A stretch of DNA of 37,815 bases from Paludibacteraceae bacterium (lineage in GTDB: Bacteria; Bacteroidota; Bacteroidia; Bacteroidales; Paludibacteraceae), in contig JAKSLA010000029.1 in assembly GCA_024401455.1 (NCBI GenBank), positions 1 through 37,815 of the forward strand. The letters are read 5' to 3'. The notes under the pieces were generated by a model, which had not been told where the DNA came from, did not search any database, and was given only the letters and a program-made list of their open reading frames with translations. Both the position numbers and the translations under genes were made by a program. Positions 13,001 to 37,195 of the stretch are shown piece after piece (position 1 is the stretch's first letter; each line of letters begins with the position of its first letter).

Positions 13001-15291
13001 CTGTCAGCAGAAGCGCACAACTCATTGATGACAACTGTTGGAAGTTCACATCCGACACTGTCAAAAACAGCAGTAATCTTACATCTCTTAGAAATCTTTT
13101 TCGACAACACTTTTGTATAAACAGAATATGTGGTATCAGCGAAACTCAAATCCCATCGATTGAACTTAAAACCAGCTGGTGCCACGGCCTCCAATTCTAA
13201 CATAAGTTTGTTCAGCCAATAGCCAGAAAACGAAGACTTATTCACCACCTCCTTGTTCATAATAAATCTGACTCCCTCCACATTCGCCGAATAAGATAGA
13301 CCGGAATTATAAGGATAACCATAATACTCACCCAAGGATGCAACTACATTTTGTATTCTCTGTTGGGAATTATTCAACAAAAATGTCTTGCCATTACATC
13401 GCTTAGGATTCAATCCATCAAAGGTTGCACAAAACTCCTCTGAGACAAGAGTAGCAAGACTATCATAAACCGCTGTAACATTTTTAAAATTGAGAGTCGT
13501 ACCCAAATACATCAGCCATCTATTCAAGAATCTTGTCTTGAATTGTGGATTTTCCATAAGATTTGCATAAATCTCATTACGCCATACACGTCCCTCTCTC
13601 CACCCTGGTATAGAGGCTTCTCCCGTGGACCATTTAATCGGATCAACTGAAACATCACTCGGCGTTGCACCCATAGTCACATCCACATCATACAAAATCC
13701 AACGAAACTTTCCATTCTCACGATCTCGCCAACACATGATGTTATTGAACGGCCAATCCACATTCGTCGCATATTGTTCAATAATCATATAATCAATGTA
13801 CTCTTCGATATCCATCATTTTGTCTGCCGTCTCATAATAGGACGAATCTTTAGGATCATTGTTTTTTAAAAAACGGACCAATTCATTATATGCTAATTTA
13901 TCGCCCACCTTTGCATCATTAACTTTGATAATATCCATTTCATCTTCTGCCAGTCCGAAATTGGATGTGACATAGCCATCCGACAAATGTTCACGAAGCC
14001 CCATCAGACCTTGGTAAACACCGTTCAAATAATAGGCTACAGGCTGATAAGCATGATAATCAACGTTCATTTCGCTAGCCAAACGATTAAAATAACCATC
14101 CCTGAAACGCAAACCCATCGCTGTATTGGCATTGCCTCCCGCTCTGATCTTCACTGCGTCAAACTTCACACCAGGTCTATCAGCAAAAAAAGGATATTCA
14201 AAAAGTTCTTTATCCGCCCCAATTTTCTTTCCTGTCTTAATCTTCAGCGATTTCGGTATGTTCGTATATGTACGCGTACATCCTCCAGAGACAGCCACTT
14301 CCGTTTCTTCGCAAAGGACTAACTTACCGTCCACAAAATATTCCATGACAGCAGGGCGCTTCCAATCTTGATTGAAATTGGCAGGAGTAGAGACACAATT
14401 TCCCATCGCACCATTGACACCCCTGACGGCAATACCTATTGTATCGTCCGTCAAATACTCATCATTCATCGTAAGAGAAAGAATGGGCAAAGTAAAACCG
14501 CCACAAGACTCATGCTTTTCATCCATGAAAATAAAAGTTCCAGTAAGCGACTGGCTCGGCAACAATGAATCAGAATAGGCTATTGCCTTTATACTTGTCG
14601 TGGAATCTATAGATAAAACAGAACCGTCCTTCAATATAGGACTTTCCTTGGTTGGTTCCGACCCATCCAATGTATAATGAATGGTCACATTAGGCGTTGC
14701 ACATTTCAACGACAACGAAATAGGGCCCGATTGAAGGCCTGGCTTAGCCCCGACGAAAGAAACAGGACTCACTCTATACTCTTTTAACGATGAATATATG
14801 GTTTGATTAGCCTTCTTGGGGGTTGGTAACATATAACCATAATTGCCCAAAGAATCTCTACCATACGCAATATGAGCCGTCATCGGCAAATAAGAGAATT
14901 CATCTACAACAACACCGGAAGGATCTGATACATATATTACACCTCCATCAGAATCCAACTTCGTTGATGAATGAAGAGACTTTAAGCTATCCTTATCAAA
15001 ATACAACAATAGGTAAGAATTCGAAGGCACCTCGATATTAGTTGTCACCCTCCACTTCCACTTGTACTTCAAGTTTCCTTTGGCCGTCAAATTGTGATGT
15101 TCAAAGGTGTATCCCTTCAGATTAATTGATTCTGTCGAAGCATTAAACAATTCCAAATATCCAGGGAAATTCCACGAATTTCTATCTAAATGAGAAGATA
15201 TATTGCACGTCATTACCTCGGTAATCTTCACCGAAGCATTCATTTGCAATGTCACAAGCAGGAAAACGAGTAATATAATTCTTCTAATCAT
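10066..15291 (-). CDS. Giant secreted CotH / lamin-tail / YDG-type repeat protein
   Basis: A 1741-residue protein with a signal peptide (first 19 or so residues, MIRRIILLVFLLVTL core). Domains in order: a lamin-tail-like domain (about 20-165), a chitobiase C-terminal-like segment with YTLDGSEPT (about 180-255), a CotH kinase-like domain (about 260-640, with GLRFRDGYFNRL near 395 and DVDVTMG near 530), a second lamin-tail-like domain (about 765-900), nine tandem repeats of 85 residues (about 914-1680) and a C-terminal domain of about 55 residues (FDLNGRLVRK ... YRVVIK) resembling a type IX secretion sorting domain. CotH kinases phosphorylate proteins in spore coats and occur widely as extracellular proteins in Bacteroidetes. 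The likely location is the cell surface or outside. The role is unknown. It has its own gap on both sides (232 and 194 bases). Confidence 0.85.
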   Translation of the reverse strand: MIRRIILLVFLLVTLQMNASVKITEVMTCNISSHLDRNSWNFPGYLELFNASTESINLKGYTFEHHNLTAKGNLKYKWKWRVTTNIEVPSNSYLLLYFDKDSLKSLHSSTKLDSDGGVIYVSDPSGVVVDEFSYLPMTAHIAYGRDSLGNYGYMLPTPKKANQTIYSSLKEYRVSPVSFVGAKPGLQSGPISLSLKCATPNVTIHYTLDGSEPTKESPILKDGSVLSIDSTTSIKAIAYSDSLLPSQSLTGTFIFMDEKHESCGGFTLPILSLTMNDEYLTDDTIGIAVRGVNGAMGNCVSTPANFNQDWKRPAVMEYFVDGKLVLCEETEVAVSGGCTRTYTNIPKSLKIKTGKKIGADKELFEYPFFADRPGVKFDAVKIRAGGNANTAMGLRFRDGYFNRLASEMNVDYHAYQPVAYYLNGVYQGLMGLREHLSDGYVTSNFGLAEDEMDIIKVNDAKVGDKLAYNELVRFLKNNDPKDSSYYETADKMMDIEEYIDYMIIEQYATNVDWPFNNIMCWRDRENGKFRWILYDVDVTMGATPSDVSVDPIKWSTGEASIPGWREGRVWRNEIYANLMENPQFKTRFLNRWLMYLGTTLNFKNVTAVYDSLATLVSEEFCATFDGLNPKRCNGKTFLLNNSQQRIQNVVASLGEYYGYPYNSGLSYSANVEGVRFIMNKEVVNKSSFSGYWLNKLMLELEAVAPAGFKFNRWDLSFADTTYSVYTKVLSKKISKRCKITAVFDSVGCELPTVVINELCASADSTVDGLVDDYGLTPDWVELYNYGEDTVDVAGLYLTDKLTKPTKYQIPYSYENTKIAPHGYLMLWADGKSFRGATHTNFKMENAKGARLALVQVCGDTTIIDQVSYVKMQTNGSYGRRSDASDSWRSFSPKSDTLSVGVVSFVSPKGENGTEGYLSLGCPTPDDVTKVYDGKALSYDVLSSGNYEGEDVIAEYSVDSGMSWSQSVPEIKEKGSLGVTVRATHPKYKSAECAYELEVTPADMELMCPIADSTVKVYDGTMLSAEAEAKGIEGDTITIEYSTDGGSTWVEAAPSIVRRGVQKVQVRAHNPNYNMAECEYELEVTPADMELMCPIADSTVKVYDGTMLSAKAEAKGIEGDTITIEYSANEGGTWVETVPGIVNRGVQKIKVRAHNPNYNMAECAYELEVTPADMELMCPIADSTVKVYDGVMLNPMAEAKGVAGDTITIEYSTDGGNAWGEAVPGIVNSGVQKVQVRAHNPNYNMVECEYELVVSPAELEIVCPDVDSTIKVYDGKAMRPMAEAFGLDGDTITIEYSTDGGNAWGKAVPSIVNRGVQKVQVRAHNPNYNMAECEYELVVSPAELEIVCPDVDSTIKVYDGKAMRPMAEAFGLEGDTIVIEYSTDGGTSWGTVVPSIVNRGVQKVQVRAHNPNYNPAECEYELVVDPAELEIVCPDADSTVKVYDGKVMRPMVEAFGLEGDTIIVEYSVDGGNSWGVVVPGMVNSGVQQVQVRVNNPNYNMAECEYELVVNPAELDLVCPNADSTIKVYDGKPMNPMAEALGLEGDTIIVEYSVDGGISWGKVVPSIINRGVQKVQVRAHNPNYHPTECEYELEVTPAELEIMCPNAEDVTKEYDGEFLSPIVQLEGVYEGDSIAMEYSVDGGSSWGPKTPGIVEVGSLWVKVRTNNPNYELAECDYVLTVKEYTGIDPKFIQGDDYRVFDLNGRLVRKSRTGESLLRGLKGAYLIRIYEDSKCVSCYRVVIK
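10255..12550 (-). repeat. Nine tandem 255-bp coding repeats
   Basis: The CotH gene contains nine in-frame copies of an 85-residue unit with a VYDG motif, GDTI.IEYS.DGG, and RAHNPNY near the end. The seven inner copies (about 10510-12294) are close to identical; the first and last are diverged and share their own DVTK.YDG form. Each inner unit has two Cys, near positions 8 and 78. DNA around 11178-11342 matches 11433-11597 with one difference noted, at an offset of exactly 255, implying recent duplication. Confidence 0.92.
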
Positions 15292-25090: not shown

Positions 25091-25942
25091 TTAGAATTCA
25101 ACACTTGCTCTTCTTGGTTCAAAACAACAGCATGGACGAAGGGCAACAACTCGTACTCCACTTGCTCGTTGAGGTCCCACCTTAGCGAAGGTGGCAAGTA
25201 CACTGGTATCGCCACCCAATCCAAGGGCACCAATGCCCGCCTCATTAATGCGACGGGTGATTTCACTCTCAAATTCAGTCTGTTGATCATAATTTCCATG
25301 AGCCATGGCATCCATCATCAGGGCAGTGGCCTCGTATTGACTACGTCCTATACCTACAGCCAACGTACATGGAGAACAGCCCAACTGAGAAACGGCCGTC
25401 TTTGCTCGTTCCACAATTTCGTCGAGCACCACTTGAACACTATGTTTGTGGAAAATCCTGTGTGTTATACCACGGATGGCTGGACCTCCACCCAACATTA
25501 AGACCGTCAATCTGATTTTATCGTCATCTTCATGCTCGCGAAGAATGATTGGTGCATGATCAAGTGCAGCTGGATCTTCGTCCAAACCTCCCGATTGATC
25601 AATACGTTGATTGTCATTCCCCTTGATAGCCATAGGCCTTCCTGGCAATTGACGCAACCCTTGACGAACCCCTTCTCGGATATCCTCCAACATGGCACCA
25701 CTAACCGAGCGATTTTTACCTATTTCAATATATATATGAGGAATACCTGTATCATCGCACAATGGACAGAGACATTTTTCCGCCACCTCTGCATTGTCCA
25801 ATACTTGTGACATCACCCATTTTGTATGGTTGTTACTCTCTTTCGAAATGGCTTTACGATAAGCCTCCTTCTGATCTAGTCGGAATGAGGAACCTGCCTT
25901 TACCAGCGTCTGTGCCACTAAATCTATCATCTCCTGTGCCAT
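25091..25942 (-). CDS. Class I fumarase/tartrate dehydratase alpha-like subunit
   Basis: A protein of about 283 residues matching the alpha (N-terminal) half of class I, [4Fe-4S]-dependent hydro-lyases such as L-tartrate dehydratase TtdA. It shows LCDDTGIPHIY near residue 60, GCSPCTLAVGIG near 190, and a GLGGDTSVLA segment then a Cys cluster PCCCFEPRR at the C-terminus, providing candidate cluster Cys. These enzymes remove or add water on a small hydroxy di-acid. The likely start is the ATG at 25942, two bases after the beta-gene stop; a GTG at 25948 is also in frame. In most genomes alpha precedes beta, but here beta is upstream. The true substrate is unknown and the location inside a polysaccharide operon is unusual. 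Confidence 0.85.
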   Translation of the reverse strand: MAQEMIDLVAQTLVKAGSSFRLDQKEAYRKAISKESNNHTKWVMSQVLDNAEVAEKCLCPLCDDTGIPHIYIEIGKNRSVSGAMLEDIREGVRQGLRQLPGRPMAIKGNDNQRIDQSGGLDEDPAALDHAPIILREHEDDDKIRLTVLMLGGGPAIRGITHRIFHKHSVQVVLDEIVERAKTAVSQLGCSPCTLAVGIGRSQYEATALMMDAMAHGNYDQQTEFESEITRRINEAGIGALGLGGDTSVLATFAKVGPQRASGVRVVALRPCCCFEPRRASVEF

Positions 25943-25944
25943 AT

Positions 25945-26460
25945 TCACACCTCCTTATCGTATATACTTTTACCATGAGCCGCTGCAATGATTGCTTGGT
26001 AACCCTCCACTTTGATACGATGAAGAGCTTCCATTCCTAATTCCGGCCAACCAACCAATTCGCGTTCCTTCGTTTGATCTTCAAACAAGGCTGTCGTAGG
26101 CGGAATCACAGCAAAAACAGCATTGTTTTCTTTCAATGCCTCTATCGTTGCTTTTGAAATGGCACCCTTGCCCAAATGCATCTTCAATCCGGCCTCGGAA
26201 AGAGGTCTGAAACTCTCCTCTATTTCCTTTTTATTACTTGAAGTAGGACCTACACCAGCCGGACTGACGGCAGTATGAAACATCACGGCACCTTGAAGAT
26301 CAATATTATGTTCTGCCAACGTTCCTTTTGCAATGCACTCCTGCACTTTAGGCAGAACTGCATCACGACCTGTATATATCCATCCTGAAATAGAAACCAC
26401 ATCGCCTACTTGAAGGTCAGAGATTTCTTCTTCTGAGAATGGGGTTGTTAAATATTTCAT
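25945..26460 (-). CDS. Class I fumarase/tartrate dehydratase beta-like subunit
   Basis: A 171-residue protein matching the C-terminal (beta, TtdB-like) half of class I hydro-lyases. It shows LTTPFSEEEISDLQVGDVVS at the N-terminus, then SGWIYTGRDA near 26-35, GKGAISKATIEAL near 120 and GWPELGMEALHRI near 140. The partner alpha subunit is immediately downstream, so the two probably form a heteromeric [4Fe-4S] dehydratase. Fumarase, tartrate dehydratase and related acids are possible substrates. The gap to the upstream lipoprotein gene is about 10 bases. Confidence 0.85.
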   Translation of the reverse strand: MKYLTTPFSEEEISDLQVGDVVSISGWIYTGRDAVLPKVQECIAKGTLAEHNIDLQGAVMFHTAVSPAGVGPTSSNKKEIEESFRPLSEAGLKMHLGKGAISKATIEALKENNAVFAVIPPTTALFEDQTKERELVGWPELGMEALHRIKVEGYQAIIAAAHGKSIYDKEV

Positions 26461-26470
26461 TTTCTATTAC

Positions 26471-27706
26471 TTATTTTATTCTTATCGGTTCGTTAGTAAC
26501 TCTTCCATATTTACCTTGGAAAAATACTTTTAAATATATAGGATTTGCCACATCAGGCAATGTTACTGACGACACCCTTGTATTGATTTCCTGCTCATTG
26601 AATTCCCTCATTACCTGCGTAGTTCCATCTTCCAAACACACCTTCACACCTATAGGAGTTGCATTGAGAGATGCAAAAGAGAATTCAACCTTCGCCCCGT
26701 AACCTGTCACCTTGACAAACGTGGACAAGACCTCAAAAAAAGTCGGTTTCGACAAGACTCCGCCTTTACGGAGGTAAACCCTATAACTGCCGGGGGGCAA
26801 ATTCGTCAAAGTTATAGACTTGGAACTCAAAGGGAAAGACGTGCTGTCCTTATCTGACACTAATACATAATCCGTATATTCAGCCTTTGAAAGGATATTC
26901 AATACCACCTCCTCGCCTTGCCTATAAGTAACTTTATCGCCTCTGTAAGTCAATATATCGTACGAATCAGAGATTATAGGCCAAGGTTCCGCTTCCGGCA
27001 CATTGCGCAAATCTTTTAATCTATAAATTCGCCAATGGGTTTTCTTATATCGATGCAAAAGCCCCCATGAATTGTACATCGTCCTTACAATTCCCTCTCC
27101 ATTTGCTTCTGTGGTCTCTATGCACTTCTTTCCATTTCGATCAAAAACCCTGGAAACGATAACCACATGCCCTGGCTCCCATAGGGCATCACACAACTCA
27201 ATATTGTCAAATGTCGGTTCTATATGTTCAAAGCAAGACAAACTATCATATAGATGCGTAGGATACTGCATTTTTAAACCATACGCATAGCCTACAAGGC
27301 CTGAACAGACCGTCCCATAATAGGCCGCCGCACCGTTTCCCTGCTTTGATGCATCCTTCAGATTCTCGTTATAGAGACACCCATCAATGTTTTTGACGGC
27401 TGTCAAAAACGTCTCCATGGAGACGTCATACCCAACCGACTTGTCAATCTCTTTAACGGAGGAATAAATCAACCCTTTCTGACGACTACCTTTAGACAGG
27501 CTTCCGACCAAAGTGGGAATGCCCTTCAACGGAATCCACTCTATGTCCGCCATGTAATCAATTCTGCGCAATATATTGTCACACCCTTCTTTGTGGGGAT
27601 AGTCTTCATATATATCGTCAGAATCATCAGAATCACAACTGACAAAAGGGAAAAACAACACACAAGTACAAAAACACAAGAGTGTTTTCGCTTTTCCCGC
27701 AAACAT
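26471..27706 (-). CDS. Surface lipoprotein with NlpC/P60-like cysteine hydrolase domain
   Basis: A protein of about 411 residues starting at the ATG at 27706. It has a lipoprotein signal peptide ending in a lipobox FVSC, followed directly by DSDDSDD. Serine/aspartate-rich tracts right after the Cys match the Bacteroidetes surface lipoprotein export signal (SDDDD type in Bacteroides), so a surface location is inferred. The middle carries GTVCSGLVGYAYGL and EPGHVVIVSRV, the Cys and His of an NlpC/P60-like papain-fold hydrolase, with ETTEANG after them. The C-terminal part resembles beta-sandwich segments. It may cleave peptide or amide bonds in the envelope. It is unusual in the middle of a biosynthetic operon. 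A TTG-initiated longer form to 27754 would overlap the upstream gene. Confidence 0.7.
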   Translation of the reverse strand: MFAGKAKTLLCFCTCVLFFPFVSCDSDDSDDIYEDYPHKEGCDNILRRIDYMADIEWIPLKGIPTLVGSLSKGSRQKGLIYSSVKEIDKSVGYDVSMETFLTAVKNIDGCLYNENLKDASKQGNGAAAYYGTVCSGLVGYAYGLKMQYPTHLYDSLSCFEHIEPTFDNIELCDALWEPGHVVIVSRVFDRNGKKCIETTEANGEGIVRTMYNSWGLLHRYKKTHWRIYRLKDLRNVPEAEPWPIISDSYDILTYRGDKVTYRQGEEVVLNILSKAEYTDYVLVSDKDSTSFPLSSKSITLTNLPPGSYRVYLRKGGVLSKPTFFEVLSTFVKVTGYGAKVEFSFASLNATPIGVKVCLEDGTTQVMREFNEQEINTRVSSVTLPDVANPIYLKVFFQGKYGRVTNEPIRIK

Positions 27707-27731
27707 AATAATTAAATTTTTCACTGCCAAC

Positions 27732-28424
27732 TTACAAACTCCTTTTGATTTCAATCATTCTTTTCACCGATTCATTCGTCATTTTAATGGACAATAAATC
27801 AGAATGCTGAACAATAAGTTCTTTCGGCCAATTCCACCATTCACTTTCCAAAAAGTCGGCAACCAAACTCTCCGAAAAACGATATTTTAATACCTTAGCA
27901 GCTCCCCCCTGATTACAAACAATTGCACAAGGAGGAACATCTTTTGTTACAATACTACCTGCGCCAATAACAGCGCCGTCTCCAATATGAATGCCGCGCA
28001 TTATATTGACACCAGATCCAATCCACACACCATTTCCTATCGTTCCTGTTAGACCTTCGTTATGATCTGGAATTTTGACACCAAACACTTTTTTCCACCA
28101 ATAGGAGGTGTACATGCTCGGACAACCATAATCGTGGTTGCTACCCCCGATACTGATATTCCATGCTATACTTGTAAACTTTGCTATATCAGTAAACTTC
28201 ACTAACGAATTAGGTCCTATGTAACTACCGAAACCGAAACTGGAATCTTGTACATAAGAACGTCGCCCTACTTCAACATGATCCGCCAATCTACTTCTGT
28301 CAACCACTACATCATCTGCACATAAACAATCTTCCCCGATAAAAGAATTGCGAATCAAACATCCTTTATAAATTTTAGAAGACGGCGCAATTTCTGAATT
28401 GATAATCGTACTACTATCGTTCAT
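27732..28424 (-). CDS. Left-handed beta-helix acyltransferase (XAT-like)
   Basis: A protein of about 230 residues with an N-terminal run of hexapeptide repeats (SKIYKGCLIRNSFIG, then VGRRSYVQDSSFGFGSYIGP). A central NISIGGSNHDYG motif is followed by the aromatic YTSYWWKK insertion, and the helix resumes with IGNGVWIGSGVNIMRGIHIG and VVTKDVPPCAIV. This is typical of xenobiotic acyltransferase/Vat-type enzymes. I chose the ATG at 28424, four bases after the previous stop; an ATG at 28463 would overlap it. It may acylate an amino sugar, but the substrate is unknown. Confidence 0.8.
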   Translation of the reverse strand: MNDSSTIINSEIAPSSKIYKGCLIRNSFIGEDCLCADDVVVDRSRLADHVEVGRRSYVQDSSFGFGSYIGPNSLVKFTDIAKFTSIAWNISIGGSNHDYGCPSMYTSYWWKKVFGVKIPDHNEGLTGTIGNGVWIGSGVNIMRGIHIGDGAVIGAGSIVTKDVPPCAIVCNQGGAAKVLKYRFSESLVADFLESEWWNWPKELIVQHSDLLSIKMTNESVKRMIEIKRSL

Positions 28425-28428
28425 GCCA

Positions 28429-29568
28429 TCAATGTCCAAACAATTCCAAATAGCAAGCGTCATTTTCAATCACACCATACGCCTTTGCTCGCATGGAGAT
28501 TTTTTCTGCCCAACGCTTATGCGGACCTATCTCATTCATTTTGTTGGCGTTTACACTCTTAACAACACCGCCTGATGTATTAAGAATCTGCTCTGCATCC
28601 TCGTATTCTTCACGCGTCACAGCCAACATACCATTAATGTAATTCAAGTGTGTTGGGTGAATACAAGTCTTACCCATGAAACCGTTGGCTTGGTCAAGCA
28701 CCAACTCGCGCATCAAACCATCCACCGCATCGTTAACGATAGCCTTACGCTTCAACAGTGTATCTTCCAAATTAAATCCTTGCAACTCCTTGAATTTCAT
28801 ATTCTTGTTTACACGAAAATATTCCCAAACAGGACCGCTGACCGTATAATCATTATTTCGAGTGAATACATTCAAGATATCCATCAAACAATCTCTCACT
28901 GTCATGATATCGTAAATCGTGTAGTTAATGCCTCGACGAACACCAAAGCAAGATGAAAAATCTGTGCCACCTACTCTGACATTGAGCACTAAATCCTTAT
29001 GACGATCAAGAATCATCTTGATACCGATAAGTTCCACAAAACGACTCTCTTTAAAAGCCACTTTAGAATCTTCTATAATCGGCATACCATAAATAACCTC
29101 TCCGAATTTTTCATTCAAATACTCAAGATGCTCGTAATATTCATCTCCATTGTAAGAATTGAACTTCGGGAAATTGATACCAGTTATCAAATGAATATGC
29201 TCCTTCTTTAGCATAGAACTCCAATGTTTGAACTGTTCTACAGAACGAACACGGAAGAAGATCAAAGGAACATCCTCATAACGAAGTTTACCTTCATTTA
29301 ACCATACATTCAATTGGTCTAAAAGCGCCAACGTGTTTTGCTCTGCAGCAGGAACGTCTTCCTCCTTGCAAGCATCCTCAAAACACATCACCATAGACGT
29401 AAGTCCTGGATATTTCTTTTCTATGATAGCCTGAGCAAAATCCTTTGTTCCTGGCATATACATTGTTGCACCAAGGCAATACTGCAACAAACTTCTATCC
29501 GTATATTTGTTAAAGTCCTGAGGTGCTTTAACAAACTGATATGATGGATTATATTGATGATGTATCAT
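28429..29568 (-). CDS. CitE-like C-C bond lyase (HpcH/citrate lyase superfamily)
   Basis: A 379-residue TIM-barrel protein. Motifs such as FGVRRGINYTIYDIMTVRDC (about residues 210-229), SGPVWEYF near 255 and GKTCIHP near 305 match the C-C bond lyase subfamily best known from tellurium-resistance-associated metabolite modules. Acidic residues in FEDAC (about residues 63-67) could bind Mg. The family cleaves or forms C-C bonds in hydroxy-acyl acids (citrate, malyl, citramalyl). It lies one base from the ATP-grasp gene and belongs to the acid-metabolism cassette. Substrate unknown. Confidence 0.75.
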   Translation of the reverse strand: MIHHQYNPSYQFVKAPQDFNKYTDRSLLQYCLGATMYMPGTKDFAQAIIEKKYPGLTSMVMCFEDACKEEDVPAAEQNTLALLDQLNVWLNEGKLRYEDVPLIFFRVRSVEQFKHWSSMLKKEHIHLITGINFPKFNSYNGDEYYEHLEYLNEKFGEVIYGMPIIEDSKVAFKESRFVELIGIKMILDRHKDLVLNVRVGGTDFSSCFGVRRGINYTIYDIMTVRDCLMDILNVFTRNNDYTVSGPVWEYFRVNKNMKFKELQGFNLEDTLLKRKAIVNDAVDGLMRELVLDQANGFMGKTCIHPTHLNYINGMLAVTREEYEDAEQILNTSGGVVKSVNANKMNEIGPHKRWAEKISMRAKAYGVIENDACYLELFGH

Positions 29569-29569
29569 T

Positions 29570-30790
29570 TTAAATATATTTTCTATTCAACAAGTCAGTT
29601 CCATGGCTATCCAAAACTCTTATCTTGGCATAAGCCTGTCTCTCTTTTTCCTTGAGTTCATCGTAAGTCGACGCTTTAACAATAAAAGCCGCAACACGAT
29701 TACCACTTGACATGTTCGAGTCAATTTCAGTGCCAGGCGTCTTCATTACAAAGGATTTATTGACTATGCCCTCGTCACACAATTCTTCAAAACCCTCTAC
29801 ATGACTAAAGATACCAGGATGCATATAAATTAGATTAGTGGAATAACACGCATCCAAAGTTGCCTTAGCATATTGCATCTTCTGTCCAAGGAAAGATTGA
29901 ATTGCACATTTTACAACATCCACTCCCGCTATATTTTTCAAAATGTAGTAAGACAATCCGCCTCCAATACGAGGAGCAAACTCCAATACTTTTATTCCTT
30001 CAGAATCGACAATCGCCTGATAAAAGAAAGGCGTATTCTTCAATCCAAAAGAGGCTGCAATTTTTTTTGCCACATCAAGAGTTTGAGCCCTCAACGCCGC
30101 ATCAAGATTGGCAGGAATAATAGAACCTGTTGATTGAAGTACGATATCATCGTCTCGCCTAATCTGCTTTTTCTGTCTCGTAAGCAGTACATCAGCATCA
30201 CCATCTAATGCCAAACAATCCACTTGGATTTCAAAACCTTCGACAAACCCCTCAATAATTGCACTTTTTGTTCGGCTCATAGACAAAGCCTCAACTGCAT
30301 ACTTATGAAGTTCCTCTACTGTATCTACTTTGCGGACACCTTTCGAACTATTGCAATCCACAGGTTTTACCACCAATGGGAAAGCAAATCGATTGTCTTC
30401 TATTTCTTCTTCGGAATGAATAGTATAGAAATCAGACGTCGGAATTCCACCGTCTTTGAAGATTACCTTCATTCTTCCCTTATCAGTAACATCCAACGAC
30501 GTCTGATAAGAATAAGGAAGAGGTAACCCTAATTTCTCTGCGACATAACAGCATGTACTATTCGCCTGATCTATACATGTACTAATAACAAGTTCTACCT
30601 TCTCTTCCTTTGCTATACGACATACTGCTTCCTTATCCAATGTGGATGCTTGGATATGCTTGTCCGCTACTTTTATACCCGGAGAATTATCCAAATAATC
30701 CACCAATATTACCTCATAATCTAATTCATGAAGATAATTAATCAAAAGAACGTGCGGACTTGTACCTCCGAGGACAATCGCTTTTTTCAC
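29570..30790 (-). CDS. ATP-grasp ligase
   Basis: A 406-residue ATP-grasp enzyme. It has an N-terminal pre-ATP-grasp Rossmann-like domain (AIVLGGTSPH), the ATP-binding FPLVVKPVDCNSSKGV segment near residue 145, and the metal-binding LEFAPRIGGGLSYY segment near residue 273. ATP-grasp enzymes make amide (or similar) bonds by activating a carboxylate as acyl phosphate. The preferred partners are not readable. It overlaps the upstream TIM-barrel gene by four bases and lies one base from the CitE-like gene. In this context it may couple a cassette-made acid to an amine such as an amino sugar. Confidence 0.87.
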   Translation of the reverse strand: MKKAIVLGGTSPHVLLINYLHELDYEVILVDYLDNSPGIKVADKHIQASTLDKEAVCRIAKEEKVELVISTCIDQANSTCCYVAEKLGLPLPYSYQTSLDVTDKGRMKVIFKDGGIPTSDFYTIHSEEEIEDNRFAFPLVVKPVDCNSSKGVRKVDTVEELHKYAVEALSMSRTKSAIIEGFVEGFEIQVDCLALDGDADVLLTRQKKQIRRDDDIVLQSTGSIIPANLDAALRAQTLDVAKKIAASFGLKNTPFFYQAIVDSEGIKVLEFAPRIGGGLSYYILKNIAGVDVVKCAIQSFLGQKMQYAKATLDACYSTNLIYMHPGIFSHVEGFEELCDEGIVNKSFVMKTPGTEIDSNMSSGNRVAAFIVKASTYDELKEKERQAYAKIRVLDSHGTDLLNRKYI

Positions 30791-31680
30791 TTCTTAAAAC
30801 CTTTAGGAGACCAGATTGCCTCTGGATAATATGTATCGATTACACGCTTAACAAGAGAAACTTGCTTAGCCCGTTTCTTTGCATCATCAGTAGTAGAATC
30901 CCAACTGTGAGTCTGAGCCACACTACCGCCTGTCTTTAAATATACAGGAGCAGCAACACGAATGAACTCAGGCACTTCGTAATGACGAATAAAGCCACCT
31001 GTTGATTTTGGATTCTCCGTATGAATATCTATTGGAACATTCACCGCAGCACGCATTGCCGACAACATTTGAAGTTGAATATCACGAACTGGATTCAAAG
31101 AATCCGCACCAATACTTTCTAATAGGTGGGCCGAACATGGATTTCCAAATCCCGTATGGGCTGAAACCTTAAAATGGCAATCGGCTGGGAGTTCTCCTGC
31201 TTTACGCATTTCATTCAATGCCCAAAGACATCCTTCGTCATAGACAAGGAAACCGCGACATCCGAAGGCGGCCGCACGCTTCACATCTTCAATAGCACGA
31301 ACCACTTGCTCCTGTCCTCGAAGACGATACCCCATACGAACTCCCTCCGGAGTATTTACAGAAGCACTGGTATCAGTCGTGGCTCTCGGTCCAATTGCGA
31401 GAATCAACTCCACATTTGCCTGTTGTGCCAACTTCACCATCGCCTCTATATCACTATCGGCAAGAGACATGATTCCCTTTGTCTGCGTAACACGGTGCAA
31501 GTAAAGCCCATATTTATCAATTTCCTCCAGTAATGCCTCCATTACTTTCGGTCCTTGGATGCCCGGTACTTCAAATCGATATTGACCACCATCATCAAAA
31601 CGCTTGTCTGACGTAGGGAGTGTATATAGGTCGCCACCTGGCATACCTAACTTTTCAAGGAAATCTCTTGTTGCTTTCAT
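30787..31680 (-). CDS. TIM-barrel protein, U32-peptidase-like
   Basis: A 297-residue protein that reads as a TIM barrel. Conserved-looking segments include VELILAIGPRATTDTSAS near residue 90, CRGFLVYDEGCL near 145, FKVSAHTGFGNP near 170 and IDIHTENPKSTGG near 218. I tentatively relate it to the U32-family/collagenase-like barrel group, but the usual U32 Cys-x-C cluster is not evident, so its activity is unknown. It lies between MmgE/PrpD (six-base gap) and the ATP-grasp gene (four-base overlap), so it is part of the same cassette. Confidence 0.55.
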   Translation of the reverse strand: MKATRDFLEKLGMPGGDLYTLPTSDKRFDDGGQYRFEVPGIQGPKVMEALLEEIDKYGLYLHRVTQTKGIMSLADSDIEAMVKLAQQANVELILAIGPRATTDTSASVNTPEGVRMGYRLRGQEQVVRAIEDVKRAAAFGCRGFLVYDEGCLWALNEMRKAGELPADCHFKVSAHTGFGNPCSAHLLESIGADSLNPVRDIQLQMLSAMRAAVNVPIDIHTENPKSTGGFIRHYEVPEFIRVAAPVYLKTGGSVAQTHSWDSTTDDAKKRAKQVSLVKRVIDTYYPEAIWSPKGFKK

Positions 31681-31686
31681 ATCCTA

Positions 31687-33003
31687 TTAAAGATTGGAAT
31701 ATAATTCTTGTATATTGCTCTGTTCCAAGGCTTTCATGGCCGCATTAGTATTAACACTAGTATAAGCCGTTAAAGATTGGAACTTTTGTATAAATTCTGT
31801 TTTTGAAAGTGGATTCTCTCTATCGCCTTTAGCATACTCCACCATTTTACTGATGCTACTTCCATCCTTAAAATCTATTGTAACGTTAGCCTGACGTTTA
31901 TTAGACTGTTGACTTGTATAATCAGCATCCTCTACAACAGATACCCTTTCAATCAATAGCCTTACATCTTTATCATTTAAGACCTCCGCTTCGAATGAAT
32001 CAAATGTAACTGATTGGTATTTATAAGCGACGGCCACCGAATACGGGATACTTAACTTCGCTGATTGTTCGCCACAAATATCCTTATGGTCATGACCTTT
32101 TATCGCCAATTGATAAGTTGCCACTCTTATCGAATTGATATCGCATGGAGCAACCTTATGCTGCTCGCTTATTTTTATTGCAGCTTCTATAGCCGGATGA
32201 CAATGACGACAAGCCGCATATAACTTCACATAGATACGTTGTATTTCATAATCATCAGAAACACCCACCAATTTATCCATGTTTATATCTTCGCATAGTA
32301 ACTTTATAAAACCTCTGTTGCCCCCAAGTATATCGTCTGCGCCCTTTTTCCCCGTTTGGCCAACATAACTGGCCATAACTGCAGACATGGCTGCATTAGA
32401 AACATTATAAGGTTTCAACTCTGATGAATCTTCCTGAATTTCAAGGAAACCAGCAGCCGACGTCGCTGCAGCCGACAAAGTTGCCTTTAATTGACTTGGG
32501 GTTTGTGACATTGCAAAAGCACAACCTAATGCAGCACCTATCGTACCACAAGTACCCGTCGTATGAAAGCCTTTTTTCTTATGGGCCGGCTGAACAGATT
32601 GCGCTAATCTTGCTGTAGCCTCATAGCCCATCACAACACCTCTTATAAGGGAATCAAAATCAAGATTCCGCTCTTGCACAATAGCCAGAACTGAAGCAAC
32701 CACCACCGCTCCGATATGCGTCATACCATAACGATGACCATCGTCCAATTCGGTAGTATGTGCGTTAAATCCATTGACAAAAGCGGCAATAGGAGCCGCT
32801 GCTTTGAAAAGTCCCGACCCTATAATAGCACATTCACCACCCATCGGATAAGATTTCACAAACGACGGGTTATGACGATAGCCATTGGCCGCAGTGGCAA
32901 TAAAATCAATAATGCATTGCTTAGCCTTTTCCACTACGATAATAGGCATGCTTTCAGCACACTTACCGACAAGATAATCTATATATTGATCCGATATACT
33001 CAC
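31687..33003 (-). CDS. MmgE/PrpD family protein
   Basis: A 438-residue protein of the MmgE/PrpD fold. It has HTTELDDGHRYG near residue 77, the GFHTTGTCGTIGAALG motif near 147, LKPYN near 200, YAACRHCHPA near 262 and SAKLSIPYSVAVA near 310. The Asp, His and Lys residues in these motifs correspond to active-site positions known in cis-aconitate decarboxylase and 2-methylcitrate dehydratase. The reaction is therefore likely a dehydration, hydration or decarboxylation of a citrate-like acid. The start is a GTG at 33003, two bases after the preceding stop; no close ATG exists. It is not near a methylcitrate cycle, so the substrate is probably cassette-specific. Confidence 0.85.
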   Translation of the reverse strand: MSISDQYIDYLVGKCAESMPIIVVEKAKQCIIDFIATAANGYRHNPSFVKSYPMGGECAIIGSGLFKAAAPIAAFVNGFNAHTTELDDGHRYGMTHIGAVVVASVLAIVQERNLDFDSLIRGVVMGYEATARLAQSVQPAHKKKGFHTTGTCGTIGAALGCAFAMSQTPSQLKATLSAAATSAAGFLEIQEDSSELKPYNVSNAAMSAVMASYVGQTGKKGADDILGGNRGFIKLLCEDINMDKLVGVSDDYEIQRIYVKLYAACRHCHPAIEAAIKISEQHKVAPCDINSIRVATYQLAIKGHDHKDICGEQSAKLSIPYSVAVAYKYQSVTFDSFEAEVLNDKDVRLLIERVSVVEDADYTSQQSNKRQANVTIDFKDGSSISKMVEYAKGDRENPLSKTEFIQKFQSLTAYTSVNTNAAMKALEQSNIQELYSNL

Positions 33004-33005
33004 GA

Positions 33006-33971
33006 TTATAGATACTTATTTTGTGCTATTGTCTCCAACTCTCCACGCTCAAAATGATACATATTTGCCATTGCATCATGCATCATACCATGAAATGAAT
33101 CATATGTCACGCCTCCGATATGAGGCGTAGAAACTACATGAGGATGTTTAATAATTGTCCAATCTATTGGTGGTTCAGAATTAAAGACATCCAAACCTAC
33201 AAAAGAGACTTTCCCGCTATTTAGCGCATCAAGCAAATCTGCCTCATTCACAAGCTGACCTCTCGCAGTATTGACAATCACAACATTATCCTTCATTTTT
33301 TCAATGGATCCCTTGCATATCAATTCTTTAGTGTCAGGAGTCAAGGGACAATGAAGTGTAATAATATCCGATTGGGAAATCACCTCATCCAACGGCAGCT
33401 GCTTTACATTCCATGCTTGCTGCTGAGACTCGGTCAAATCAGGATAAGTGTGGCATATTACTTGGGCACCAAAAGCATTCAACAAATGTGCAACTTTCTG
33501 TCCGATATTACCCAAGCCTATAACCCCGACCGTTTTCCCTCTTAGTTCGAATGTACGCACTCCTTGTGCTTGCTTAATCCATTGCCCTCCTTTTGTATTT
33601 GCCAACACCTCTGGCAAGCGTCGTAAGCAAGATAAAATCAGTAACAAAGCATGTTCGGCGACACTATCTGCATTAACCCCATTATTGACATAGAGAGGTA
33701 TATTCCTTTCTCTTAGCAAATCTAAATCTAACGCATCCAAACCTACGCCCGTACGCTGCACCATTTTTAACTTTGTTGCAGCCTTTATTACCGGCTCATC
33801 GATTTTCAGTCGACCGCTTGCTAAAATATAGTCTGCTTCAGGGGCTTTCTTCACAAGATCTTCTTGAGAGACCTCGTCCAACATCAACAAACGGAACCCG
33901 TCGGGTACACAAGATGAAATAATCTTATATGGACCTTCAGGATATTTATTAGTCAACAGAATGGTTTTCAT
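33006..33971 (-). CDS. D-2-hydroxyacid dehydrogenase (phosphoglycerate dehydrogenase-like)
   Basis: A 321-residue NAD-dependent D-isomer 2-hydroxyacid dehydrogenase. The Rossmann motif VGVIGLGNIGQKVA is near residue 147. The catalytic triad is visible as Arg in NTARG, Glu in FNSEPP and His in TPHIGG. These enzymes interconvert a 2-keto acid and a 2-hydroxy acid; phosphoglycerate dehydrogenase and hydroxypyruvate reductase are relatives. The gene lies two bases upstream of the MmgE/PrpD gene and four bases after the aminotransferase, so it belongs to the cassette. Substrate unknown. Confidence 0.9.
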   Translation of the reverse strand: MKTILLTNKYPEGPYKIISSCVPDGFRLLMLDEVSQEDLVKKAPEADYILASGRLKIDEPVIKAATKLKMVQRTGVGLDALDLDLLRERNIPLYVNNGVNADSVAEHALLLILSCLRRLPEVLANTKGGQWIKQAQGVRTFELRGKTVGVIGLGNIGQKVAHLLNAFGAQVICHTYPDLTESQQQAWNVKQLPLDEVISQSDIITLHCPLTPDTKELICKGSIEKMKDNVVIVNTARGQLVNEADLLDALNSGKVSFVGLDVFNSEPPIDWTIIKHPHVVSTPHIGGVTYDSFHGMMHDAMANMYHFERGELETIAQNKYL

Positions 33972-33975
33972 TAAC

Positions 33976-35085
33976 TTATTTAACTATCAAATCAAGAATT
34001 CTATTGACAACCTCTTCCGAAAGCGCATGATGCATAGGCAAACAAATCACGCTGTCCGCCATCTTGTGCGCATTCGGCAAATTATCTCTGCGAGCCGAAT
34101 CCAACCCTTTGTATGTTGAAAACTCACTGATCAAAGGATAGAAATAACGTCTGCCCAAGACCTTTTCATCCTTCATCTTGAAGTATAATTCATCGCGCGT
34201 CATTCCATACTCCTCCTCATTGACGAAAATTGGGAAATAGGAATAGTTATGCCTCACACCTGGCATATCATCGAAGAAGGTGATGCCTTTCACATTGCGC
34301 AATGCATTACGATATTGAATTGCCACTTGATGACGAGCCTCAATAGCACCGTCCACCTGTCGAAGATTCAAGATGCCGTAAGCAGCACGAACTTCATCCA
34401 TCTTGCTATTAATGCCAGGAGCAATGACCTCCGTTTCTCCTGCAAAGCCGAAATTTTTCAGATAGTCTATGCGTTTCTTGGTCTGCTCGTCATGCATCAC
34501 CATCGCACCGCCCTCTATCGTGTTATAGACCTTTGTAGCATGGAAACTGAGCGTACTCATATCGCCTGCAGTCAAGACACTTTCTCCATTTACCTCCACA
34601 CCAAAAGCATGGGCTGCATCGTAAATCACCTTCAAACCATACTTGTCGGCAATGTCCTTGATTCTTTTCGTGTCACAAGGTTTTCCATAAACATGTACAG
34701 GCATAATAGCCGTAGTGCGTGGAGTAATGGCCGCCTCTATTTTATCTGGATCTATGTTACCTGTCGCCAAATCAATGTCAACAAAGACTGGCTTGATTCC
34801 ATTCCACCATAAAGCATGAGTTGTAGCAACAAAGCTATACGGAGTTGTAATCACCTCTCCTGTAACATGTAAAGCCTGAAGTGCCGTAATCAACGGCAAC
34901 GTTCCATTGGTGAAAAGGCTCACATACGGAACTTTCAAATATTCAGCCAACTCCTTCTCCAACTGTTTATGGAAAGAGCCATTATTTGTAATCCACTTGC
35001 TGTCCCAAATCTGTTTCAACATTACTTGGAATTCATCCAAGTTGGGCAACAAAGGGGATGTCACCGTTACTATATCGTCACTCAT
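33976..35085 (-). CDS. DegT/DnrJ/EryC1 aminotransferase, VioA-like
   Basis: A 369-residue PLP-dependent sugar aminotransferase. The PLP lysine is in SFHATKVYNTIEGGAM near residue 190. The N-terminal WITNNGSFHKQLEKELAEYL and FTNGTLPLITALQAL segments fit the sugar-nucleotide aminotransferase family. The pattern resembles VioA-type dTDP-4-amino-4,6-dideoxy-D-glucose (Qui4N) aminotransferases (from memory, not a search). It would need a 4-keto-6-deoxy sugar from a dehydratase, which is not in the window. It overlaps the Wzx gene by eight bases and begins the run of cassette genes. Confidence 0.85.
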   Translation of the reverse strand: MSDDIVTVTSPLLPNLDEFQVMLKQIWDSKWITNNGSFHKQLEKELAEYLKVPYVSLFTNGTLPLITALQALHVTGEVITTPYSFVATTHALWWNGIKPVFVDIDLATGNIDPDKIEAAITPRTTAIMPVHVYGKPCDTKRIKDIADKYGLKVIYDAAHAFGVEVNGESVLTAGDMSTLSFHATKVYNTIEGGAMVMHDEQTKKRIDYLKNFGFAGETEVIAPGINSKMDEVRAAYGILNLRQVDGAIEARHQVAIQYRNALRNVKGITFFDDMPGVRHNYSYFPIFVNEEEYGMTRDELYFKMKDEKVLGRRYFYPLISEFSTYKGLDSARRDNLPNAHKMADSVICLPMHHALSEEVVNRILDLIVK

Positions 35086-36523
35086 TTTTCTTACCTCTTT
35101 TTATTAGCAAATCTTTTATGTCCTGCAACTCTGAAAAGCGGAAGAGAACACTACCTCCTATATAAATGGCAGCACCCAGTAAACCACCTACTACAAGAAC
35201 AATATATTGGTTTTCTATAATAAATGTCAGCCCCCAAACGGCAGAGAACATCATCAAACCTAAAAGAAGAGTAGGAAAATAATCCTTCATCTGTTTGAAA
35301 AAGCCAAAGTCAATCAGTTTCCCTGTAAAATAAGTATTTATTATCAAAGACAACAACGAATTGACAATCTGACCATAACACATCACGATGATTCCATAAG
35401 GTGCAGTTAAGAACAACATGCTGACACCCAATATCTTCTTTATTATCTCCAAGTTTAGGAACAAATCCGAACGTCCTTTCACTTGCAGCAAATTCAGATT
35501 TATCGCATGGATTGGATACCACATCATGGCAAAACACACCACCTGCAATATTTGTGCACAAAATAGCCATTTTTCTCCGATCAAAACATTGGTCAACGGG
35601 ATGGCCAAAGCCGACAAGCCCATCATTAATGGAAAAACCACAAAAGCCGCCAAGTTCAAAAACTTTCGATATAAAGTCCTTAACCGCTCCTCCTCGTTTT
35701 GGATCTGGCACAACACCGGATATGAAACGCGGTGCATTATATTCGTCAGATTGGTTGACGGGAACTGGGCAAAATGCTTAGCTCTATTATAATGTCCCAA
35801 ATCGGGAGCCGAAAACAATTTTCCTATGACTATCGGATAAATCTCCTTATAAATTGTATTAATCAATCCCGACAACATCAATTTGCTTCCAAACGAGAAC
35901 ATTTCACGGAACGAGGTCCAAGAAAAGGCTTTGATAGGTCGCCAATCCGACATTTTCCACAACAAAACCATTGTAATGAATACTGACGCGATCTGCTGTC
36001 CCACTAAAGCCCATACTCCATAACCAGCATAAGCCACAACAACGCCACCTATTCCTGAAATCACCGCCCCTATGGAAGAAGCCTTCATCAAAGACTTGAA
36101 ATCCAATCTCGAAGTAAATTCCGCCCGTTGGACGACACAAAGTGAATTCAAGAAAAACACAACGCACAATACTCTTATGACATCGGTCAACAATGGCATT
36201 TTATAAAAATCGGCTACCAACGGAGCAGATACAAAGGCGATGAAATACAATAGCACGCCAACTACTATATTGAAATAGAAAACTGTCGATTTATCAACTT
36301 CCGTCCTTTCTTGCTTACGAATCAATGCTTGAGAAAATCCACTATCTATCAACGAATTAGAAACAGCAATAAAAATGGCTGCCATGCCTACCAAACCATA
36401 ATCGCCTGGAGACAAAAGCCTTGCCATAAACAACATAACAAGGAACTGAACCCCTTGAATAGAAAAACTATCCAAGGCATTCCATATCATGCTTTTTACT
36501 GTTTTTTCTTTTAATTCGGACAT
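35078..36523 (-). CDS. wzx: Polysaccharide flippase (Wzx-like)
   Basis: A 481-residue multi-pass membrane protein of the MATE-type/WzxC flippase superfamily, with about 12-14 predicted helices. The N-terminus shows ARLLSPGDYGLVGMAAIF and a long series of hydrophobic helices, typical of polysaccharide export flippases. It would transfer lipid-linked repeat units across the inner membrane. It is the first gene after the UpxY-like antiterminator, at a 62-base gap, and its end overlaps the aminotransferase. Confidence 0.9.
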   Translation of the reverse strand: MSELKEKTVKSMIWNALDSFSIQGVQFLVMLFMARLLSPGDYGLVGMAAIFIAVSNSLIDSGFSQALIRKQERTEVDKSTVFYFNIVVGVLLYFIAFVSAPLVADFYKMPLLTDVIRVLCVVFFLNSLCVVQRAEFTSRLDFKSLMKASSIGAVISGIGGVVVAYAGYGVWALVGQQIASVFITMVLLWKMSDWRPIKAFSWTSFREMFSFGSKLMLSGLINTIYKEIYPIVIGKLFSAPDLGHYNRAKHFAQFPSTNLTNIMHRVSYPVLCQIQNEEERLRTLYRKFLNLAAFVVFPLMMGLSALAIPLTNVLIGEKWLFCAQILQVVCFAMMWYPIHAINLNLLQVKGRSDLFLNLEIIKKILGVSMLFLTAPYGIIVMCYGQIVNSLLSLIINTYFTGKLIDFGFFKQMKDYFPTLLLGLMMFSAVWGLTFIIENQYIVLVVGGLLGAAIYIGGSVLFRFSELQDIKDLLIKRGKKNE

Positions 36524-36585: not shown

Positions 36586-37110
36586 TCAAACTTTCTCTAA
36601 CATATCTAATGTTGCACCAACGGAACAAGCGATGATGTTTTCAACGATAACCAAAACTTTATCTTTACCATCAACCCTAACCAACTCGCCGACTATTCCC
36701 TTCATTGGCCCTTTTTTAAATATTACCTTGTCCCCCTTCATATACATTACCTCTTCCGACTCAACCGTATATTGTGACCCTGCAGCACTTACAAAATCAA
36801 TGAAGTTTCGCATTTGATAGTCGGGAATCTCCAACAACGAAGTATTAATGGTCATATCCCGCAAGTAGGAGACTTGTATGCCATGCTCATTATGCAAGTC
36901 AATGGCAGTCTGCTTATCAGAATGTACAAACACCGTATTGGGTATCAATACGGCATCCACCTTCTTCTTTCGATCGTGCCACTCACGGATCTCCTCTCTC
37001 GTAGGCAAGAACGTCTCAACACCCAATTGGGCTATTTGTCGCTGAACCGACCTTTCCTGCTTCGCCCGTGTTTTTGCAACGAACCATTTAACTGCTTTAT
37101 CTTCTGCCAT
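36586..37110 (-). CDS. UpxY-family transcription antiterminator (NusG paralogue)
   Basis: A protein of about 174 residues (ATG at 37110) with an N-terminal NGN domain, WFVAKTRAKQERSVQRQI and FLPTREE, and a C-terminal KOW domain with MKGDKVIFKKGPMKGIVGEL. UpxY proteins head Bacteroidales capsule operons and let RNA polymerase read through their long leaders, one operon per regulator. The TTG-initiated form to 37182 would add unlikely residues, so the ATG form is chosen. Unlike the UpxY-UpxZ pairs of Bacteroides fragilis, no upxZ follows; the flippase gene comes directly. The gene controls the polysaccharide operon to its left (inferred from its place at the front). Confidence 0.88.
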   Translation of the reverse strand: MAEDKAVKWFVAKTRAKQERSVQRQIAQLGVETFLPTREEIREWHDRKKKVDAVLIPNTVFVHSDKQTAIDLHNEHGIQVSYLRDMTINTSLLEIPDYQMRNFIDFVSAAGSQYTVESEEVMYMKGDKVIFKKGPMKGIVGELVRVDGKDKVLVIVENIIACSVGATLDMLEKV

Positions 37111-37195
37111 ATACTTCACTTTATAGCACGCTTCGCGGCTGATAGTAACATTCGTACCACCACACCAAACATAATACACCAAGTAATATCAACTA

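Follow-up and report, generated by a model that had tools for sequence, protein, structure and literature searches.

A gene cassette that recurs in gut bacteria was analysed in a window of 37,815 nucleotides from Paludibacteraceae bacterium (order Bacteroidales; GenBank assembly GCA_024401455.1, contig JAKSLA010000029.1, forward-strand positions 1 to 37,815), where it occupies the minus strand at 25091-35085 inside a polysaccharide operon. The gene set is no chance mixture: it is genuine, recurs across genomes and is built of modules. On balance we slightly favour the view that it is a mobile cassette devoted to producing a single hydroxy-carboxylic acid and linking this acid to the surface polysaccharide. 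It is also conceivable, at a little under an even chance, that it embodies an undescribed pathway to a non-central alpha-keto acid, in which a re-purposed fumarase-type hydratase works alongside TIM-barrel enzymes of a new family, and two interchangeable outlets serve different glycan substituents. The favoured view draws on the protein families, two predicted folds, the recurrence, two kinds of outlet, the exchange of modules and altered motifs; from these we propose putative reactions, the sequence in which they run, a product and where on the glycan it would sit. In order of transcription, the locus encodes a Wzx flippase, a DegT-type sugar aminotransferase (DegT), a D-2-hydroxyacid dehydrogenase (HADH), an MmgE/PrpD protein (MmgE), a TIM-barrel protein (TIM), an ATP-grasp ligase, a C-C bond lyase (CCL), an acyltransferase, a lipoprotein-like open reading frame (ORF), the beta (FumB) and alpha (FumA) subunits of a fumarase-like enzyme, and glycosyltransferases. 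The ORF list and the Pfam/NCBIfam matches bore out the gene list of an earlier, sequence-only reading, all of whose genes are present, intact, on the minus strand and between the flippase and the glycosyltransferases; that list had left out the lipoprotein-like ORF of 427 aa at 26471-27754.

Recurrence of the gene set across genomes

A total of 493 relatives of TIM were found among 84,980 species genomes, and the best 80 of them (78-88% identity), hereafter the 80 loci, were kept. They come mostly from Clostridia and their kin, and also from Fibrobacter, Bacteroidales, Victivallales, Spirochaetales and Kiritimatiellae. Since many were assembled from metagenomes, individual taxon placements may be wrong; cultured isolates are included, for example L013, L062, L065 and L066. 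For the control, 28 of 348 Bacillota genomes offered 37 TIM places, of which 20 were hand-picked; one, L121, was removed because it proved to be a cassette of the type D described below, which left 19 loci of distant TIM relatives. MmgE, CCL, FumA and FumB occurred jointly in 59 of the 80 loci and in 0 of the 19 control loci, which argues against a chance mixture. The sequence-only reading had staked its cassette idea on the neighbours that these genes keep elsewhere, and the idea survived the comparison, with MmgE found in 70, CCL in 73, FumB in 73 and FumA in 71 of the 80 loci. A phosphonopyruvate-decarboxylase-like enzyme (Ppd) was present in 54, an aldo/keto reductase in 50, HADH in 20, the dehydrogenase Ldh_2 in 3 and an ATP-grasp of at least 200 bits in 25, the misses including loci cut by contig ends. 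Core genes lay on the strand of TIM in 414 of 415 cases. Thirteen profiles for surface-glycan genes, covering sugar transferase, Wzx, glycosyltransferases, sugar-nucleotide enzymes, DegT and ATPgrasp_ST, gave one or more matches in 62/80 loci versus 0/19 control loci. The control loci also yielded no Ppd, aldo/keto reductase, HADH or singly occurring MmgE or CCL, and no FumA, FumB or ATP-grasp of cassette grade (0/19 for each), and Ldh_2 was seen in 5 of them. The same gene set, of the acid type that had been supposed, is carried by gut bacteria of several phyla, mostly inside surface-glycan operons.

Samples closer to the window gave a sparse distribution. TIM was found in 2 of 393 genomes of the window's order, its own included, and CCL above 400 bits in the same two; a third CCL match there, in G264, reached 19.6 bits only. 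The second genome, G101, which is of another family, carries, in one run, ATP-grasp, TIM, CCL, aldo/keto reductase, MmgE, a thiamine diphosphate (ThDP) decarboxylase, FumB, FumA and DegT, and the run adjoins a sugar transferase. Within the window's family, TIM was present in 3 of 101 genomes, its own included, and in 0 of 3 other genomes of its genus; L145 of this family carries DegT, TIM, ATP-grasp, CCL, HADH and MmgE, and L146 carries DegT, TIM, two ATP-grasps and CCL. No paper describing this gene combination was listed in searches of open-licence full texts, whether aimed at the combination itself, at such acyl groups, at Ter, at phosphonopyruvate or at class I fumarase residues.

Two cassette types and exchange of modules

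The cassettes fall into two types. Type H, that of the window, ends in a 2-hydroxyacid dehydrogenase, which is either HADH or the unrelated Ldh_2 (L023, L025 and L075; PF02615, 339-369 bits), and type D carries the ThDP enzyme Ppd, usually with an aldo/keto reductase. Among the 80 loci, 19 had HADH only, 3 Ldh_2 only, 53 Ppd only, 1 both HADH and Ppd, and 4 none of these outlets.

Trees of CCL, MmgE, TIM, FumA and FumB were built from 67-74 type-H and type-D loci, with the MmgE copy nearest TIM; like the later tree below, they are quick LG+G4 reconstructions in which many branches are weak. From the 82 TIM loci, L011, L023, L025, L026, L061, L073, L075 and L082, with both, neither or Ldh_2 outlets, were omitted. 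The CCL tree required one change of type label and the MmgE tree two, but the TIM, FumA and FumB trees required 12, 14 and 13, respectively. The approximately unbiased (AU) test rejected a single type-H clade for TIM (p 1.8e-150), FumA (p 3.2e-56) and FumB (p 4.7e-5), and did not reject it for MmgE (p 0.69). The 12 changes of TIM lay below all 200 shuffles (minimum 15), indicating a distribution that is non-random with respect to type and far from one clade, and the changes of FumA (14; shuffle minimum 10) and FumB (13; minimum 12) lay within the shuffle range. A poorly resolved TIM tree might inflate the number of label changes, an objection answered by the AU tests and by FumA, which is diverged yet still mixed. 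Mean identities within and between types (59 loci) were 0.858/0.843 for TIM, 0.725/0.691 for FumA, 0.706/0.680 for FumB, 0.754/0.588 for CCL and 0.488/0.349 for MmgE. Together, the label changes and identities indicate that TIM and FumAB are common to both types and pass between them, and that CCL and MmgE follow the type; to judge by these sequences, TIM and FumAB would serve both types alike, and CCL and MmgE would be fitted to the outlet. The G+C content of TIM (0.453) and FumBA (0.455), against 0.389-0.410 for HADH, MmgE, ATP-grasp, CCL and the acyltransferase of the same operon, is in line with a separate history. The modules are read most simply as a shared trunk that splits into two branches, with a putative order of steps.

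In a later CCL tree, to which the Ldh_2 loci, L121, L145 and L146 were added, a single branch separated all 51 type-D copies from the 18 HADH and 3 Ldh_2 copies. The Ldh_2 copies were scattered within the HADH side (3 changes, with well-supported branches forcing at least 2 origins), and the L025 lyase was 90% identical to that of the HADH locus L033. This scatter points to the repeated swap of one dehydrogenase family for another at one step, and two unrelated dehydrogenase families at one step argue for an alpha-keto acid that gets reduced. Such an acid would be common to both types and would be reduced in one and decarboxylated in the other, with a stereochemistry of reduction that the enzyme families suggest.

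Some type-D loci showed features of their own. L049 holds two different MmgE/PrpD genes. L080 and L032 adjoin NeuB/NeuC/NeuA-like genes, named by eye except for the cytidylyltransferase, and L054 adjoins PseI/PseG-like genes, also by eye. DctM-type genes were seen at L080 and L054, and a LysR gene at L054.

The TIM-barrel protein and its distant relatives

TIM (30787..31680; 297 aa), a component of the putative shared trunk, had no Pfam or NCBIfam match at E 0.001, the U32 profile included, and its AlphaFold2 model (pLDDT 83.6) was a TIM barrel. Foldseek and VIA-align searches with the model gave no function, as many barrels score alike (class II aldolases, CutC, Mk0906, RuBisCO), and no sequence relative was found in the PDB (best E 0.4 and 0.15). 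Neither the TIM nor the lyase gene had a DNA match in E. coli genomes. Four plasmid relatives were found, two of which are annotated as U32 family peptidase; around them, L005 has HADH-like (58 bits) and aminotransferase genes, and sugar-ABC-type genes lie near TIM, by annotation in L004 and by eye in L006, the neighbourhoods of L004-L007 being hints only and the L006 and L007 stretches lacking annotation.

The neighbours of the distant relatives in Bacillota were named by eye from protein starts, guided by the cassette profiles, except for Ldh_2, FumA, FumB and HADH, which were found by phmmer. L123-L125, L130 and L131 hold an operon of Ldh_2, TIM, canonical fumarase and a malic-enzyme-like gene, L122 holds the same without Ldh_2, and some of these six have TRAP-like genes; we know of no such operon in print, no literature search having been made. 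Elsewhere, TIM lies near a malic-enzyme-like gene (L126-L129), adjoins a PanB-like gene (L133, L134, L138, L140) or occurs with 2-oxoacid-dehydrogenase-like and HADH-like (124 bits) genes (L132). Such neighbours connect TIM with alpha-keto and 2-hydroxy acids.

The fumarase-like enzyme

The other putative trunk genes encode FumB (25945..26460; PF05683, 83.2 bits; motif GPTSSNK) and FumA (25091..25948; PF05681, 176.9 bits; motifs CDDTG and PQRAS). Both domains of the two-subunit class I fumarase/tartrate dehydratase fold are present, and TIGR00722 scored 126.5, above its cut-off of 100.65. Over the cassettes, the window and G101 included, the FumA motif read CDD[TS]G in 74/74 copies (CDDTG 57, CDDSG 17) and PQRASG in 72/74, and the FumB motif read GPT[ST]S[NG]K in 75/75 (GPTSSNK 73, GPTTSGK 2). 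The catabolic operons keep the canonical forms (CQDTG 6/6, GPTTS[GY]R 6/6), and all cassette copies read depart from canonical CQDTG and GPTTSxR. The altered residues presumably contact the substrate, as we take them to do in solved class I fumarases. The window's genome has a second class I fumarase domain above the Pfam cut-off in an open frame of 573 aa, probably a fused form. A role of the cassette FumAB as the cell's ordinary fumarase was considered and rejected, since the genome has this other enzyme and the cassette motifs differ; the cassette enzyme appears not to be a housekeeping one.

Further proteins of the cassette

HADH (33006..33971; PF02826, PF00389), the outlet of type H, would turn an alpha-keto acid into a 2-hydroxy acid. 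MmgE (31687..33003; PF03972/PF19305) reached the MmgE_PrpD Pfam domains and missed the 2-methylcitrate dehydratase PrpD equivalog TIGR02330 (46.6 versus 458 bits), its closest solved relatives being IRG1-like and IDS epimerase. CCL (28429..29568) matched PF15617 at 384.3 bits against a gathering cut-off of 28.4. What had been called a CitE-like lyase is thus present as a lyase, and is not CitE proper (TIGR01588, 20.8 bits versus a cut-off of 443.4); its predicted structure has the citramalyl/malyl-CoA-lyase fold, and it has no PDB sequence relative at E 0.01. Strict pattern matching found its motifs GMPI[IL]E in 71, RVGGTD in 51, GKTxIHPTH in 22 and F[FV]RVR in 18 of 74 copies. The ATP-grasp ligase (29570..30790) is of the L-amino-acid-ligase type, with ATP-grasp and C-terminal LAL_C2 domains, all scoring above cut-off (PF13535, 52.3 versus 27; PF18603, 33.3 versus 29.4; PF15632, 39.8 versus 29.1), and would couple an acid to an amine.

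Two further members are less constant. DegT (33976..35085; PF01041, 331.5 bits) is VioA/DesI-like; DesI was its best equivalog (298.6 against a cut-off of 650), and no aminotransferase equivalog threshold was reached. Close relatives (601-740 bits) lie directly upstream of TIM in L016, L017 and L030 of the 80 loci and in L145 and L146 of the window's family, which favours an amino-sugar link in this lineage. Because a DegT of that grade occurs in 3/80 loci, the aminotransferase stands outside the cassette core; it appears to be a lineage-specific companion, suited as a partner solely in loci of Bacteroidota and Fibrobacter. The left-handed beta-helix hexapeptide acyltransferase (27732..28469; PF00132; CatB/Vat/phn_thr-like), which seems optional, scored 112.7 with TIGR03308, below the cut-off of 201.65, and had 3 further matches (91-204 bits) among the loci searched.

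Operon layout and neighbouring genes

The stretch from DegT to FumA is one tight operon with intergenic distances of -41 to +10 bp; at its edges, Wzx overlaps DegT (-8 bp) and FumA is +18 bp from the next glycosyltransferase. The lipoprotein-like ORF (26471..27754), between the acyltransferase and fumarase-like genes, may be over-long at its TTG start. It had no Pfam/NCBIfam match, and its Cys/His pattern is, to our eye, reminiscent of NlpC/P60 amidases; at E 1e-25 the window's copy was alone among the loci searched, with a weak match of 86 bits in L071. Upstream of the cassette lie the Wzx-type flippase (35078..36523; PF13440, 329.2 bits) and the first gene of the locus, a NusG-domain protein (36586..37182; PF02357, 46.8 bits) that we take, from its position, to be an UpxY-type antiterminator. 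Glycosyltransferases and a Wzy-like protein follow the cassette (Wzy_C 28.6, below the cut-off of 31.7).

Elsewhere in the window, a radical SAM/SPASM protein is encoded at 8622-9833 (PF04055, PF13186), and an Oscillospiraceae genome has, at L027:94-1269 and upstream of its type-H cassette, a protein with a near-identical start and the same domains. A 1741-aa protein at 10066-15291 has many tandem repeats of about 80 residues and a front part that is CotH-like by eye.

Discussion

The pathway that we propose would begin with a trunk in which TIM and a fumarase-like hydratase put to new use together lead to a non-central alpha-keto acid. In type H, and so in the window, the D-2-hydroxyacid dehydrogenase would reduce this acid to an (R)-2-hydroxy acid, and in type D the ThDP decarboxylase, usually with the aldo/keto reductase, would give a shorter hydroxy compound; the type-specific MmgE and PF15617 lyase may shape the carbon skeleton. 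The ATP-grasp ligase would then couple the carboxylate to an amine, for which the 4-amino group of the DegT-made sugar is the simplest candidate, and Wzx would export the decorated unit afterwards. According to excerpts of PMC3210612, bacterial polysaccharides contain D- and L-malyl amides, amide-linked R-malic acid and (R)-2-hydroxyglutaric acid, the last on record for Flexibacter, a genus of Bacteroidota. An amino sugar to which the ATP-grasp ligase has attached a type-H product of the malyl/2-hydroxyglutaryl class would fit best; the acid may, as the sequence-only reading had proposed, be citrate- or malate-like and be borne as an N-acyl group on a 4-amino-4,6-dideoxy sugar.

Several points weigh against this pathway. 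The keto acid is deduced from the outlet genes only, and the reactions are putative; were the keto acid oxaloacetate or 2-oxoglutarate, the cell would have no need of the trunk genes. The glycan profiles are single proteins drawn from the 80 loci, which favours matches there, and 18/80 loci show no glycan gene in the stretch taken, 11 of them shorter than 14 kb and L021, L022, L050, L051, L056, L068 and L077 longer; moreover, just the best 80 of the 493 relatives were kept. Canonical two-subunit fumarase is found in 6/19 control loci (70-89 bits, below the FumA/FumB thresholds used). Type-D L049, L055 and L060 have no lyase in the stretch taken, and L036 and L076 no aldo/keto reductase, a contig end cutting L076. 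Finally, DctM-type transporter genes precede 12/80 cassettes and LysR genes lie before or near 9/80, which fits acid uptake and breakdown too.

These transporter and regulator genes speak for a catabolic cassette that imports and ferments an organic acid, with the glycan genes as mere neighbours, as do the six distant TIM relatives in fumarase and malic-enzyme-like operons, five with Ldh_2 and some with TRAP-like genes. We consider this unlikely, as glycan genes occur in 62/80 loci, the cassette directly follows Wzx or a DegT/Wzx pair in the window, L012, L015, L016, L018, L027 and L145, and the cassettes of L080 and L032 stand beside their NeuB/NeuC/NeuA-like genes. The acid might instead be an ordinary one, D-malate or 3-hydroxypropanoate made from oxaloacetate, with TIM, FumAB, MmgE and the lyase just regenerating or supplying oxaloacetate. 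Oxaloacetate would suit both outlets, and the malyl amides in the excerpts of PMC3210612 are in keeping with it; but oxaloacetate is central, a five-gene supply kept across phyla would be wasteful, and the canonical motifs are lost from the cassette FumAB, so this too seems improbable.

A phosphonate route would make phosphonopyruvate the shared keto acid, with the TIM barrel or the lyase replacing phosphoenolpyruvate (PEP) mutase, type D yielding phosphonoacetaldehyde and 2-hydroxyethylphosphonate and type H phosphonolactate. In its favour, all 11 type-D decarboxylases scanned (10 from the 80 loci, and that of G101) exceed the cut-off of the phosphonopyruvate decarboxylase equivalog TIGR03297 (387.6-424.8 versus 312.5), and the known fates of phosphonopyruvate include decarboxylation and reduction. 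Nevertheless, PEP mutase TIGR02320 exceeded its cut-off in just 4/24 cassette genomes (4/18 of type D and 0/6 of type H/Ldh_2, completeness mostly not given), PF13714 was below cut-off in the window's genome (24.5 versus 31.5 bits; genome 90.3% complete), and we know of no role in such a route for MmgE/PrpD, fumarase-like or CoA-lyase-fold proteins. The PEP-mutase pathway was rejected as a candidate, its mutase lying below cut-off in the window's own genome and in 20/24 cassette genomes tested, and we hold the phosphonate route at large to be very improbable. The name phosphonopyruvate decarboxylase is probably wrong for most type-D enzymes, or there is another route to the same keto acid.

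The dedicated acid pathway that we favour resembles known systems in part. N-acyl modules of 4-amino-4,6-dideoxy sugars in O-antigens and capsules are of the VioA plus acyltransferase type. As in these, sugar aminotransferase, acyltransferase and acid supply lie within one polysaccharide operon, whereas the cassette's acid supply is its own multi-gene pathway with an ATP-grasp ligase. The ATP-grasp protein exceeds the cut-off of PF15632, the family of ATP-grasps with the Ter operon, and plasmid lyase relatives, among the matches listed, adjoin phosphoribosyltransferase or StiP genes, StiP belonging to Ter. The biosynthetic module of Ter comprises phosphoribosyltransferase, HAD phosphatase and TerD in excerpts of PMC7824862, and in contrast no phosphoribosyltransferase, HAD or TerD match was found among the 20 window proteins scanned. 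The likeness of the lyase to malyl-CoA and citramalyl-CoA lyases (CLYBL) is one of predicted fold, at 17% identity. The Bacillota operons with Ldh_2, TIM and fumarase place the same TIM family beside a two-subunit fumarase, but differ in their canonical motifs and in lacking MmgE, PF15617-type lyase, cassette-grade ATP-grasp and glycan genes at the thresholds used. Likewise, the type-D ThDP enzyme is like AepY-type phosphonopyruvate decarboxylase in exceeding the equivalog cut-off, and unlike AepY pathways in that 14/18 type-D genomes tested have no PEP mutase above cut-off.

The cassette is best filed among polysaccharide-decoration gene modules. With two outlets that can replace each other, it opens the putative shared intermediate to a direct test. 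If the proposed pathway is true, a reaction could be assigned to TIM, a conserved enzyme family without a name of its own, and the database names phosphonopyruvate decarboxylase, U32 peptidase and fumarase, which may mislead, could be corrected. Furthermore, genes alone would then suffice to predict a class of acid substituents, so far unseen, that many gut bacteria bear on their coats.

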